From positions 1-23,201 of the IMG/VR virus record IMGVR_UViG_3300025647_000281: DNA of 23,201 bases; one strand, written 5' to 3'. Every line of letters starts with the position of its first letter. Positions within the stretch are counted from its first letter, which is position 1. A program made the translations under genes and the position numbers. The notes under the pieces were generated by a model. The model did not search any database. It had not been told where the DNA came from and was given only the letters and a program-made list of their open reading frames with translations. This DNA comes from a virus. Of the stretch, positions 9,991-15,307 are shown piece by piece.

Positions 9991-12900
9991 TTAACTCCAT
10001 TTAGATAAAGACTTTTCATAACTATCATTTCTGACGTTATTATTAAGCTTTATATTATTACTTATTTTAACTTTATCAAAACCTTTATCTATAGAAGATG
10101 TTATAGCGCTGCTTAGTTTGTTTTCATTAAAACTAGCATTAGCTCTTTGGTTTTTAATTTTAAATAAAGAAGACCTAGAAACCATGTCATCATAGTTCTT
10201 ATAAATAGTATCTCCTTTCTTAATAGGTATTACAGCGTTCTTTTTATCTGTTGAAAGTATTTTATTATTTCTTTCAATGTACTCCTTATAGCCGCCATCA
10301 TTAATCATACCAAAATGGTCTTTACTAGCATTATCTAAACCATCTTTATACTGCGGTATAGGCTCAGCTAATATAGCCGCTGTTTGTATTGCTCCTAAAG
10401 CCGCTATTAATATAGCAAAACCACTACCAGCAAATGGCCCAGCGTCACTATATGCTCTCATTATACCTTGAGCTGTAGATATAGCTACATCAGCTACAGC
10501 AAAGGCTTTTCTAGCTTTAGCTTGTTGCTGTTCTTTTTTAAGTCTTTCTTTTTCAAGCTTCTCTATCCTAGCTTCTCTATTGCGACGCAATGTTTCTTGT
10601 TGTTCTTCATCACCTTCAGCTAAAGCTATTAATTTATCGTATTTATCTTCAGTAGCTTTTATTTCAGCATTTATGTTTTCAATGCTTCTTTCAAATAAAT
10701 TATCTACTAAATCGCCTATAGCTTTATTAAACTCTTTAGCTAAATCAAGTATAAAAATAAAGTAAGCTTCCCAGTCTTCTTCGTCTTCAGGAGGAGCTGT
10801 TGGTCTACTAGCTTCTAAAGCATCTACTTGTCTTTTTAAATCATCTATGTATTCATCTGTAGCAGAACCCATTACTTTAGCTAAAAGTATTTCTGCTTTT
10901 ATTAACTCTATTTTAGTATCAATTATAGCATTCGTAGAATCAATTGCTACTTGAGCTAATTCTCTCTCTAGTTGCTTTCTATCTTCAGCTGTTTTATTTG
11001 ATTCTTCAAATTCTTTTTTAATAGCTATTATTCTCTTATCATATAGATTTTGAGTTTTATCTAAAGCTAATTTTTCTAATGTAGTTTGCGATAAAGATTC
11101 AAGTTTTTTGCCTGTATCAACTTCTATATCTATTAAGCTATTAGATAACTTTATTCTTTGAAGCTCAATATACTCGTTTCTTTCGTCTTCTAAATCATTT
11201 ATTCTTTGTATTCCTTTTTCGTAAGATAAAGTGCCATTTAACATTGACTGATTAATAGAAGCAACTTCACTTTCCATTCTTGCTTTAGAGTCTCTTTCTG
11301 AAATTTTAAATAAGTTTTGTTTTATTAATATTTCTTGATTAGCAGCTTTTCTTATAGCGTCTAATCTTATCTCTAGATTAAGTTCTTCATTATCAGCTAT
11401 TAAATTGTTATGTTCTAAACCTTTTTTAGCTATTTCATTCATTATCTCTAGATAATAATCTTTTAGCCTTCTTAATCTTCTTTGTGTTTTTTTAGTTCCT
11501 TCTTCATTTGGTGGAACTTGAACATTAGATTCTTGTATAAGCTTTTTGTATATAATAAACCTAGCTTTAGCATCTGCTAAATCATCTTCTATACCTTCAA
11601 AAGCTTCTTTAACTTCACTAGCTTTATTTATACCTAAAAATGATAATAAATCTTGATTAACTTTACCCCCAAGAAAAGATGTATTTGTTTTTTCGTCAAA
11701 TTCTTTTTTAGCCTCTAGAGCTTTATCGTATATTTTTTGTTGTCTATCATACTCTTCTTTAGCTGCTACTATACCATCTTTAGCTGTTTGTTTTGTTATA
11801 GCTATTTTTTCTTCATTATGCTTGTTAAGCTTAGTTATTAAGTCAGCTAAGTTTTGTTCAGCTATATCTTGAAGTTCTTTAGATGTAGCTTGTTCAATTT
11901 GTATTTTTGTTTCGTCTATTTGTCTTCTTAACTTTATACCTTCTAAGCCTAATTTTTTTTCAGCATCTTCATCAAGCCCATCTTCTATAAATCTTGTACT
12001 AGCTACTATTGATTTTTCTAAATCTTGGCCATAACCAGCAAACAGTTCATCTGTTGCTTTTATAGCTTGGTTAAGAACAGTTAATAAAAATCCAAAAGTT
12101 TTTCTTATTACACTATCTCCTTCTGTTACGTTTTTTATAAAACCCTGCCATGATGCTCCTAATCTATTTTGAGCTGCTGTTATTGTATCAATTCTGTCTA
12201 CTGTTTGAATATCATAAGCAATTTCTAATGCTTGAGCAAATTTAGGTAATACTTCAGCTGAAAGAACTTCTCCTTTTTTCAACATTTCATCAAGCTTAGG
12301 TATTGTAACACCTACAGCTGATGCCATTATACCCATAGCACCAGGTAATCTTTCACCTAATTGTCTACGTAGCTCTTCTGTAGTAACCTTACCTTTAGAA
12401 AGCATTTGTTCTAAAGCTAAATAAACACCTTGTAATTCATCTGTCTGTAAACCAAGAACACTAGCTGCTTTAGTCATAGACTTAAATATATTTTCAGTAT
12501 CTCTTAAAGCTAAACCTGATTCGTTAGCTGCTGCTAAAAACTTAATCCACCTATTTGTTGTAGTAACTAATTCAACACCAAAGTCTTCTGTTAACGCTAT
12601 TAAAAATCTTTCAGAATCTTTAGCTGCTTCTAAACTTCCTGTTATTTTTTCTAAAGCAAAAGAAAATGAATCAAATTGTTTTGTTGTCTCATAAACATTT
12701 TGAAGTAAATCTTTAAACAATTGAACAGCTGATATTGCCCCAAAAGCTCTTAGTATATCATTTAAAGATGAAGTGAATTTTTTATTTTCAGAAGTACCTT
12801 TACTAACTGCTTTAGAATTATTTGATGTAGCTTTAGTAGCTTTATTAGTAGCTGATGTACTTGATTGAGTTGCTTTAGCTGAAGATGTAGTTGTGTTAGC

Positions 12901-13176
12901 ATTTTTTGCTTTGGAACTAGTATTTGAATTAGTAGCTGCTGTATTAGCTGTTAGTTCTGCTGAATTTTTTTTTAGTATAGCTTCTAGGTAATTCATTTTA
13001 TTACCAACATCGCTAATCTTTGTTCTTAAGTTTGAAAAAGCATTTTCTAATTTTTCGAAGTTTTCACCTGTACTTTGAGACATGCTTTTAGATGCTTTTT
13101 TCATGTTATTTACTTCATCTATAACATTTCTTAGCTCCTGTAAAGCTTCTTGAGCGTCTAAACTTAATTTAGCCAT
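9991..13176 (-). CDS. Tape measure protein
   Basis: A 1061-residue protein that sets tail length and is threaded through the tail tube. Residues 1-75 are helical. Residues about 78-130 are a low-complexity Ser/Thr/Asn/Ala/Lys linker. Residues about 135-320 carry the conserved tape-measure domain, including FLAAANESGL near 213 and KGKVTTEELRRQLGERLPGA near 261-280. Long coiled coils fill about 390-880. Near the C-terminus are hydrophobic segments (VADVAISTAQGIMRA, then GFAILIAALGAIQTAAIL) typical of these proteins and thought to act at the host inner membrane. The protein ends with a GGYKEYIERNN and VIPIKKGDTIY tail motif. The gene overlaps the previous one by 8 nt. By the 0.15 nm per residue rule the tail would be about 160 nm. 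Confidence 0.93.
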   Translation of the reverse strand: MAKLSLDAQEALQELRNVIDEVNNMKKASKSMSQSTGENFEKLENAFSNLRTKISDVGNKMNYLEAILKKNSAELTANTAATNSNTSSKAKNANTTTSSAKATQSSTSATNKATKATSNNSKAVSKGTSENKKFTSSLNDILRAFGAISAVQLFKDLLQNVYETTKQFDSFSFALEKITGSLEAAKDSERFLIALTEDFGVELVTTTNRWIKFLAAANESGLALRDTENIFKSMTKAASVLGLQTDELQGVYLALEQMLSKGKVTTEELRRQLGERLPGAMGIMASAVGVTIPKLDEMLKKGEVLSAEVLPKFAQALEIAYDIQTVDRIDTITAAQNRLGASWQGFIKNVTEGDSVIRKTFGFLLTVLNQAIKATDELFAGYGQDLEKSIVASTRFIEDGLDEDAEKKLGLEGIKLRRQIDETKIQIEQATSKELQDIAEQNLADLITKLNKHNEEKIAITKQTAKDGIVAAKEEYDRQQKIYDKALEAKKEFDEKTNTSFLGGKVNQDLLSFLGINKASEVKEAFEGIEDDLADAKARFIIYKKLIQESNVQVPPNEEGTKKTQRRLRRLKDYYLEIMNEIAKKGLEHNNLIADNEELNLEIRLDAIRKAANQEILIKQNLFKISERDSKARMESEVASINQSMLNGTLSYEKGIQRINDLEDERNEYIELQRIKLSNSLIDIEVDTGKKLESLSQTTLEKLALDKTQNLYDKRIIAIKKEFEESNKTAEDRKQLERELAQVAIDSTNAIIDTKIELIKAEILLAKVMGSATDEYIDDLKRQVDALEASRPTAPPEDEEDWEAYFIFILDLAKEFNKAIGDLVDNLFERSIENINAEIKATEDKYDKLIALAEGDEEQQETLRRNREARIEKLEKERLKKEQQQAKARKAFAVADVAISTAQGIMRAYSDAGPFAGSGFAILIAALGAIQTAAILAEPIPQYKDGLDNASKDHFGMINDGGYKEYIERNNKILSTDKKNAVIPIKKGDTIYKNYDDMVSRSSLFKIKNQRANASFNENKLSSAITSSIDKGFDKVKISNNIKLNNNVRNDSYEKSLSKWS

Positions 13177-13786
13177 TTTGTTTTGTATTTTTTCTCTCTA
13201 AGATACTAGAGTAGTGAATAAATCTTTTTATACTATCTTCGTATATATTTATTTTATAACTAAGCGGTATTCCAACCTCTAAGCTTATACACATTTTTTC
13301 AACGTCAGTACTAGTTTCTGTTTTGCTTTTTTTATTTCCGTATTTATTTACAAAGTTTGATTTAGCTATTTTTATTTGATTTTTAATACCTAATAATCTT
13401 TTTTTTATAACTAATACTTGACTAATAACATCTTTGGCTGAATTTATTTGCCAACCTAGTTCTTTTAGTAACAATACAACTTCAAAAGAGTTAGTTTGCA
13501 TATATAATGATATACATTTATTTGTAATGTTGTATCTAAATTCTAAAAAATCAATATGAAATTTAGCTTGATATTCTTTTATTAGTTTATCATTTTTAGT
13601 TAAACCATTATATTCAGCTAATATTTTCTTAAAATGTGCGTGTAGTTTTTGATTTAAAAAATCATCTATATAGACTTTATCAATATTTTCTTTGAATAAA
13701 TATTTGTAATCATTTTCGTCTATTATTTTGAAGAAATTAAAAATTGGTAACTCAGAGCAATCTGCGTATACTTTATCTAATAACAT
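13169..13786 (-). CDS. Pre-tape-measure protein, tail assembly chaperone candidate
   Basis: A 205-residue protein without recognisable domain. It is helical and basic in the middle (QVLVIKKRLLGIKNQIKIAK), and its C-terminal part reads CISLEVGIPLSYKINIYEDS then a basic tail. It occupies the slot immediately before the tape measure and overlaps it by 8 nt. In lambda-like phages this slot encodes the T part of the G/GT tail assembly chaperones, which chaperone the tape measure. Its leader is unusual: the 36 nt before the ATG are nine perfect AAAC units and nothing else. The frame is open upstream through the repeat, as far as a TAG at 13838-13840, in the +1 frame relative to the preceding gene. 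A frameshift fusion is therefore possible. Confidence 0.6.
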   Translation of the reverse strand: MLLDKVYADCSELPIFNFFKIIDENDYKYLFKENIDKVYIDDFLNQKLHAHFKKILAEYNGLTKNDKLIKEYQAKFHIDFLEFRYNITNKCISLYMQTNSFEVVLLLKELGWQINSAKDVISQVLVIKKRLLGIKNQIKIAKSNFVNKYGNKKSKTETSTDVEKMCISLEVGIPLSYKINIYEDSIKRFIHYSSILERKNTKQNG

Positions 13787-13822
13787 GTTTGTTTGTTTGT
13801 TTGTTTGTTTGTTTGTTTGTTT
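13787..13822 (-). repeat. Perfect tetranucleotide repeat (AAAC)9 forming a gene leader
   Basis: Nine uninterrupted copies of GTTT on the plus strand (AAAC on the transcribed strand) span exactly the space between two genes. The last two bases of the upstream TAA stop are the first two bases of the first unit, and the downstream ATG follows the ninth unit directly. The repeat therefore replaces the whole ribosome-loading region. AAAC-rich leaders precede several other genes here, so it may be an unstructured translation enhancer. Slipped-strand change in copy number could tune expression. Confidence 0.95.
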
Positions 13823-14297
13823 AAAAAAAATCCATTTCTAAACCACCACTAGCTGATTCTGAATTTCTTTCTAATGAATTTATCACATCTTCTATACCAG
13901 GCTCTATCATTGTTAGAAAAATAAAGTCTTGTTCTTCTTTAGTAAAATGTAATATAGCTTCACCGTACTTACTTACAAGTGATGATGTTTTACCATCTGT
14001 AGAATTTAATATTAAGTCGTAACCTTGCATTTCAACGTAGAAACCACCGTAAAATAAACCTTCGTCTCTTAGAGTAACAAAACCGCTTCTTTTGTTCTCT
14101 TCTTTTTTCATTAGTACAGTGGAAATTTTGTATTCAGGCTCTATTAAATTGCCTGTACCATCAACACCGTGTTGATATAATCTATTTTTAACTAAGCCTA
14201 TTATTGTAGATTCATTTTTTTTTACTATTTCGCTTATTATCTCATGGAGACTTTTCTCAAAACCGTATAAATCTAAAAGATACTTTTGAAGGCTCAT
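13821..14297 (-). CDS. Virion morphogenesis-like protein between tail tube and tape measure
   Basis: A 158-residue protein. The N-terminal half is helical (FEKSLHEIISEIVKKN). A region about 40-115 follows that recalls neck, tail-completion or virion morphogenesis proteins of Bacteroidetes prophages: NRLYQHGVDGTGNLI, YKISTVLMKK, FVTLRDEGLFYGGFYVEM, then SLVSKYGEAILHFTKEEQ. I know this pattern without a firm function. Position between the tail tube and the tape measure also fits the G-type tail assembly chaperone of lambda. It follows a strong terminator by 12 nt, so it probably depends on readthrough. Its last codons GAT TTT TTT TAA sit in a T8 run (13823-13830), a possible slippery site. Confidence 0.6.
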   Translation of the reverse strand: MSLQKYLLDLYGFEKSLHEIISEIVKKNESTIIGLVKNRLYQHGVDGTGNLIEPEYKISTVLMKKEENKRSGFVTLRDEGLFYGGFYVEMQGYDLILNSTDGKTSSLVSKYGEAILHFTKEEQDFIFLTMIEPGIEDVINSLERNSESASGGLEMDFF

Positions 14298-14368: not shown

Positions 14369-15307
14369 TTAGATGACAACCTCGTTGTTACTTAAAACGT
14401 TTCTATATAAAACGTTGTTTGAATCAGCTACTTTAGTATTTGTTCCACCGTGGAAATGCTCTACAAAAACATTTTCACCTGTGCTTACAGCTGAACTTAA
14501 AGTTAAAGTGTAATTACCAGGAGTATTTTCTACAACACCACTAATAGTAGCACTCGCTGAATTTACTGTTACAACAAAATCAACATCGTCTAAACCTTCA
14601 ACTAAAGAGCTTCTGTCCGAAGCTAAGACTACTTTAATTTCAAGTGTTGTATCAGTATTTGCAGGCAAAGTAGTAAATGAAATTTCTGTTCCATTAATTA
14701 CAGGTACTTCTTGAGGTGTAATACTCAAATCTTCAATGTGAAGAATTTCGTAATTTCTATCCCATTCCATACGGTCTAAAAACTGCATAGAAACAGCTTT
14801 CATTTCAGGGTCTCCACCTTCTACTTGACGCTTAGTCAACTCTGGCGTAACATGACCTCCTGTAAAACCTTTAAAGTTACCATTTGATTTTCTTACAATC
14901 ATCCAGTTTCCTTCGGTATCACCTATAAGCCAATCAAATCTTTTAAAAGATTCAAGCTTATCTAATTCTCTGTAAAATTCATGACCTTCTTCAAACCAAA
15001 GTTTGTATTCAGGTAATCCTTTAACATTTAATCTTTTGATAGTCTTCGCGTTTGTAGAGAAATTATCATCACCTGATAAATCTTCAAAATTAGAAGCATC
15101 AATTAAAGGTACTGCTATACCTTTCTGTACTAAAGGTCTTAAAAATGTATCATTGAATTCATCAGTTGAAAGCATTTCTGTACCTTTTATTAAACCTATA
15201 GCGTGAGCTGGAGTTCCAAATAAAGATAAACACCCAAGTTTACCTGTATTAATAGTGTCTCCAGACCCGCCACAAGCCTTTTTACTAGCAATTGTTCCTA
15301 AATCCAT
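14369..15307 (-). CDS. Major tail tube protein candidate with C-terminal Ig-like extension
   Basis: A 312-residue structural protein. Residues about 1-200 would form the tube subunit, with a cysteine-containing start (KKACGG, GKLGCLSLFG). Residues about 203-312 look like a separate beta-sandwich appended to it: EISFTTLPANTDTTLEIKV, then FVVTVNSASATISGVV and NYTLTLSSAV. Immunoglobulin-like additions of this type are known on tail tube and capsid proteins, where they decorate the virion surface. Its place after the tail terminator candidate and before the tape measure region, and the strong terminator after it, fit the most abundant tail protein. The start overlaps the stop of the preceding small gene (TAATG). 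Assignment is by context and layout, without a named motif. Confidence 0.65.
   Translation of the reverse strand: MDLGTIASKKACGGSGDTINTGKLGCLSLFGTPAHAIGLIKGTEMLSTDEFNDTFLRPLVQKGIAVPLIDASNFEDLSGDDNFSTNAKTIKRLNVKGLPEYKLWFEEGHEFYRELDKLESFKRFDWLIGDTEGNWMIVRKSNGNFKGFTGGHVTPELTKRQVEGGDPEMKAVSMQFLDRMEWDRNYEILHIEDLSITPQEVPVINGTEISFTTLPANTDTTLEIKVVLASDRSSLVEGLDDVDFVVTVNSASATISGVVENTPGNYTLTLSSAVSTGENVFVEHFHGGTNTKVADSNNVLYRNVLSNNEVVI

Follow-up and report, generated by a model that had tools for sequence, protein, structure and literature searches.

The complete spacer between two tail genes of a siphophage consists of nine perfect AAAC units, and this array is probably a leader that grew by slippage, A-rich and unstructured, in a spacer whose length is free to vary. 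The window (the whole stretch of 23,201 nt analyzed here) covers a part of the phage genome in which terminase, portal, major capsid protein, and tape measure were identified. The known hosts of its relatives are flavobacteria (Polaribacter, Tenacibaculum, Leeuwenhoekiella, and Croceibacter) and, more distantly, Bacteroides.

The (AAAC)9 array and its flanking genes

On the minus strand, the nine units run from position 13822 to 13787, and the sequence T+(AAAC)9+ATG links the 158-aa gene, at its stop codon, to the start codon of the 205-aa gene (Table 1). The junction reads ...ATG GAT TTT TTT TAA, AC(AAAC)8, ATG TTA TTA..., with the ATG of the 205-aa ORF at 13786 immediately following the last base of the array. 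The description in the original prediction of nine uninterrupted units from a stop codon to the base before the next ATG is exact on this strand, and the array, which fills the stop-to-ATG gap, is indeed the whole leader of the 205-aa gene. Tandem Repeats Finder reports 9.2 copies with 100% matches, and a pure tandem tract of nine units is long enough for slippage. The preceding T8 run is the only run of at least eight T's on the coding strand. A search of the junction for structured RNA gave folds not clearly better than those of shuffled sequences (z-scores of -0.65 and -0.90).

Table 1. Positions of the array and of the features around it in the window.
Feature	Position	Strand	Evidence or remark
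Tape measure protein	9991..13176	-	PF20155 TMP_3, E 1.6e-27; 8-nt overlap between its start and the end of the 205-aa gene
205-aa gene, led by the array, before the tape measure gene	13169..13786	-	PHROG 32987, unknown function, E 2e-8; family alignment
(AAAC)9 array, forming the whole spacer and the leader of the 205-aa gene	13787..13822	-	nine perfect units
TAA stop of the 158-aa ORF; its two A's are the start of the first AAAC unit	13821..13823	-	
T8 run, encoding the Asp-Phe-Phe-stop end	13823..13830	-	weak pairing with upstream GTTTAGAAA
158-aa tail / virion-morphogenesis protein, upstream gene	13821..14297	-	PHROG 6195 'tail protein', E 4.5e-27

The 158-aa protein has homologues in Bacteroides phages and flavobacterial phages. 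Translation of the 205-aa gene very likely does begin at the ATG at 13786, since homologues of its product start at about the same place and share the motif (x)LYKSCxxLPIYxFF within their first residues. This gene had been assigned to a tail chaperone position: its location directly before the tape measure gene stands; however, the name 'tail chaperone' for its product is a guess from position, because the predicted all-helical structure (pLDDT 82.9) has no significant match in PDB. The last bases of the 205-aa gene, at 13169-13176 (AATGGCTAA), also form the start of the tape measure gene. The same 8-nt overlap is kept in four of the five relatives compared (L015, L017, L018, and L020), so the two genes probably share a conserved translational coupling. 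In addition, a 312-aa protein in the tail-tube position (14369-15307) has weak C-terminal matches to SWM_repeat and Invasin_D3, which suggests an Ig-like domain in its C-terminal part.

At 37 nt, the array exceeds every other period-4 tract in the window; the longest tract in 600 Markov simulations had a maximum of 19 nt and a median of 12 nt. The 23.2-kb record holds this one AAAC array only, with no dispersal of the repeat unit across loci. Stretches of at least eight AAAC units occur 21 times in the IMG/VR set of 2.9 million viral contigs, which bears out the claimed rarity of such arrays in phage DNA, and an exact-flank search of IMG/VR found no second copy of the locus. Among the 13 relatives found via the capsid protein, period-4 tracts reach at most 15 nt and AAAC arrays at most two units.

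Start sites of the phage and the same junction in relatives

A Shine-Dalgarno (SD)-like motif precedes only one of 21 genes in the window, and an A is present at -3 in 17 and at -12 in 15 of these genes, as expected for Bacteroidota. In F. johnsoniae, reporter and profiling experiments demonstrate that A at positions -3, -6, -12, and -13 boosts initiation, as does low structure (PMC6847099). The array contains neither G nor U and provides A at -3, -6, and -12 and C at -13, i.e., three of the four favoured positions. The 60-nt region at the start of the 205-aa gene has a folding energy of -0.5 kcal/mol, the second weakest of 20 genes, with a predicted unpairedness of 0.61-0.67. Moreover, AAAC seeds are 2.8-fold enriched in the other leaders of the phage compared with its genes. 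The nearly absent SD motifs, the favoured A's, and the low structure make an extreme A-rich unstructured leader of the Bacteroidota type, which the original prediction had offered as its second option, the best fit.

We retrieved the corresponding loci of relatives via the capsid protein and then via tape measure queries; searches with the 205-aa or 158-aa protein alone yielded no close relatives in IMG/VR. The resulting 59 distinct junctions were called by a simple ORF rule, by which a few distant ones are possibly misassigned, and the five closest were also inspected singly. None of the 59 relatives has the array at this junction, where the longest period-4 tract is 11 nt, and their spacers range from -40 to +312 nt, with an ATGA-type overlap being the most frequent arrangement; therefore, the length of the spacer is free to vary. 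This comparison of the spacer in related phages, proposed earlier as a check, identifies the array as an addition private to this phage, as judged from the sequences of the relatives seen.

AAAC arrays in other viruses and in cells

A scan of IMG/VR for (AAAC)6 returned at least 80 stretches. We assigned an array to a gene if the 60 nt downstream contained an ATG on the same strand that starts an ORF of 50 codons or more, using mechanically called ORFs and a motif count as the measure of SD usage. Among the matches listed, there are 68 distinct viral arrays of at least six units, of which 32 precede an ATG in the sense orientation only versus four in the antisense orientation only; counting five related methyltransferase arrays once leaves 28 versus four (p = 2e-5). 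The A-richness of leaders alone would favour the sense orientation. On SD-poor contigs among the matches listed, the array lies at a median of 6 nt before the ATG with no intervening SD-like motif (0 of 17), whereas on SD-rich contigs such a motif separates the array from the ATG in seven of 11 cases (Fisher p = 3e-4). In four other contigs (L050, L066, L103, and L107) the array fills the intergenic gap up to the next ATG or within 3 nt of it, as in the window. A broader interpretation, in which (AAAC)n is a recurrent and independently arising start-site repeat of phages that takes the role of ribosome landing site in SD-less hosts (perhaps through S1), with its length tuning the 205-aa product relative to the tape measure protein, we consider unlikely.

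In five prophages (L032:1950-2050, L035:5170-5260, L034, L041, and L048), a DNA methyltransferase gene is immediately preceded by ATG-(CC/AC)-(AAAC)9-19, with an SD-like motif separating the array from the methyltransferase start. The encoded enzymes are relatives of the methyltransferase of Haemophilus phage SuMu, in which no AAAC array was found. L032 and L035 have 19 and 16 units, respectively, within flanks that are 90-95% identical, and a methyltransferase gene of this type looks phase-variable.

In cellular genomes, (AAAC)5ATG was found in 13 stretches across 84,980 bacterial and archaeal species, about six of them in Bacteroidota and several before no gene. The Bacteroidota counterparts L110, L113, and L117 carry (AAAC)5-10 immediately in front of the ATG of ORFs on the chromosome, which encode proteins of 186 aa (n = 10, Weeksellaceae), 573 aa (n = 5, Flavobacteriaceae), and 233 aa (n = 7, Tamlana); judged by eye, these are purN-like, oxidoreductase-like, and a membrane protein, respectively. 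We rejected the idea that AAAC leaders are a common feature of Flavobacteriaceae: the sole match to (AAAC)4ATG among 397 genomes is the genome chosen as the centre, with none in the 396 others. Thus, the AAAC leader is a permitted but uncommon form, and not a standard one even where SD motifs are unused.

Origin of the array, copy number, and alternative readings

We propose that an AAAC seed between two same-strand tail genes would have grown by replication slippage into a microsatellite, which may now act as the leader of the 205-aa gene, presenting an A-rich, unpaired region to ribosomes that work without SD pairing, and which may have been kept because the product was a good leader of this kind. 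The array sets the stop and start codons, which overlap in many relatives, 34 nt apart, and its anatomy would buffer its own instability, with the stop codon regenerated and the last 20 nt before the ATG constant at n of at least 5. We infer the slippage origin, the leader activity, and the near-neutral copy number; the leader activity is deduced from the F. johnsoniae data (PMC6847099) and from the placement of arrays across phages. Against this interpretation, more cases would be expected in Flavobacteriaceae if an AAAC leader were neutral and easily formed, and at -13, a position that favours A, the array carries C.

To follow the effect of copy number, the junction was rebuilt in silico with n = 0 to 15 units. 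At n of at least 5, the sequence from -20 to -1 is identical, both proteins are unchanged, and the predicted unpairedness around the ATG is 0.65-0.67 (n = 5 to 15); it is 0.36-0.51 at n = 0-3 and, with the T8 run near the start, 0.36-0.45 at n < 3. The array sits outside both reading frames, among consecutive genes on one strand; the stop codon is restored by 'T' together with whichever unit comes first, and each unit shifts the stop-to-start distance by 4 nt. Thus, at n of at least 5, a change in copy number would alter this distance only, and a frame switch or an on/off switch by copy number is unlikely on these predictions, because the proteins, the 20 nt before the ATG, and the predicted accessibility all stay the same. 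The contingency switch of the original prediction, which would operate by whole-unit slippage, finds no support here; a mild effect of copy number on reinitiation is possible. A related proposal is a contingency or rheostat locus in which slippage alters the stop-to-start distance and thereby tunes both reinitiation at the 205-aa gene and the ratio of this gene to the tape measure. Pure nine-unit tetranucleotide arrays can slip, as the different lengths before the methyltransferase genes of two related prophages illustrate, and the distance could matter in this phage given that stop and start overlap in many relatives. However, the same constancy at n of at least 5 and the wide range of spacers tolerated among relatives count against this proposal, no variant of the locus turned up in the exact-flank search of IMG/VR, and, to our knowledge, structural genes are not typical contingency genes; we regard it as improbable.

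The sense bias of the viral arrays and their closeness to the ATG on SD-poor contigs mirror the orientation and position of TAACTGA repeats (PMC4679880), which would accord with a sequence-specific mRNA binding site for S1, a cold-shock protein, or a phage regulator, as proposed for those repeats. Such a site is quite improbable, though, as the window holds a single array and the relatives none, and a general preference for A-rich unpaired leaders accounts for the bias equally well. A programmed +1 frameshift at TTT-TTT-TAA, yielding a 158-aa/205-aa fusion via a (Lys-Gln-Thr-Asn)3 linker similarly to lambda G/GT, is hardly credible. At n = 9, no stop codon interrupts the +1 frame between the T8 run and the 205-aa gene; however, the frame relation between the two genes is not conserved (0, 1, and 2 in 16, 16, and 27 of the 59 relatives, respectively), one unit gained or lost would break the frame, and the family matched by the upstream gene is one of tail / virion-morphogenesis proteins and not of chaperones. 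Since all three frames occur among the relatives, a conserved fusion, either +1 or -1, was rejected, and a fusion with a copy-number-dependent frame, as initially suggested, is not supported. No conserved slippery heptamer was found before the stop codon; among the junctions printed, the T8 run is common only to L127, where the 158-aa homologue ends with GAT TTT TTT TAA (GATTTTTTTTAA) as in the window, without a spacer, and where a -1 shift would be required. The T8 run is therefore coding sequence and not a slippery site kept for fusion. In L127 (1880-1950) this homologue ends with GATTTTTTTTAATG, its stop codon overlaps the next ATG, and a -1 slip on the T8 run would join the frames, an arrangement that is possibly due to chance. 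An assembly artefact in the metagenomic contig is likewise highly improbable: only one record of the phage exists in our data and no second assembly was found, but the 36 nt are shorter than any usual read length, and the ORFs on either side are intact and have homologues in relatives.

The nearest precedent of the array is the TAACTGA start-site repeat, a direct repeat found in marine Beggiatoaceae, Cyanobacteria, and some Bacteroidetes, of which one genome carries 169 sets (MacGregor, 2015, PMC4679880). Both are short tandem repeats in forward orientation that end at or just before the start codon; some TAACTGA arrays, which are long in some Bacteroidetes, also overlap the end of the upstream ORF, and SD motifs are seldom present. 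Unlike the seven-base unit of that dispersed family, the window has a four-base unit in a single array, and in a phage. The Kozak-like A-rich initiation regions of Bacteroidetes (Baez, 2019, PMC6847099) share with the array the lack of SD, A at -3, -6, and -12, and low structure, whereas ordinary leaders of this kind are not tandem repeats and the array departs from them by its C at -13. The AGAT repeats of Moraxella catarrhalis uspA2, located between its promoter and start codon (PMC4679880), similarly form a pure tetranucleotide tract between transcript start and start codon, and in both cases copy number can change without altering the protein. However, uspA2 encodes a surface protein of a bacterium and its copy number depends on the strain, while in the window the gene is a phage tail gene within a gene cluster, and the register before its ATG does not depend on copy number.

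Thus, not every tetranucleotide array should be taken for a phase-variable switch. The sense-oriented AAAC arrays before phage starts, which lie near the ATG on SD-poor contigs and behind an SD-like motif on SD-rich ones, make the leader idea testable across phages, and the array described here, with one repeated word in a slip-proof register, offers a natural case for testing how start sites are found by ribosomes that disregard Shine-Dalgarno sequences.
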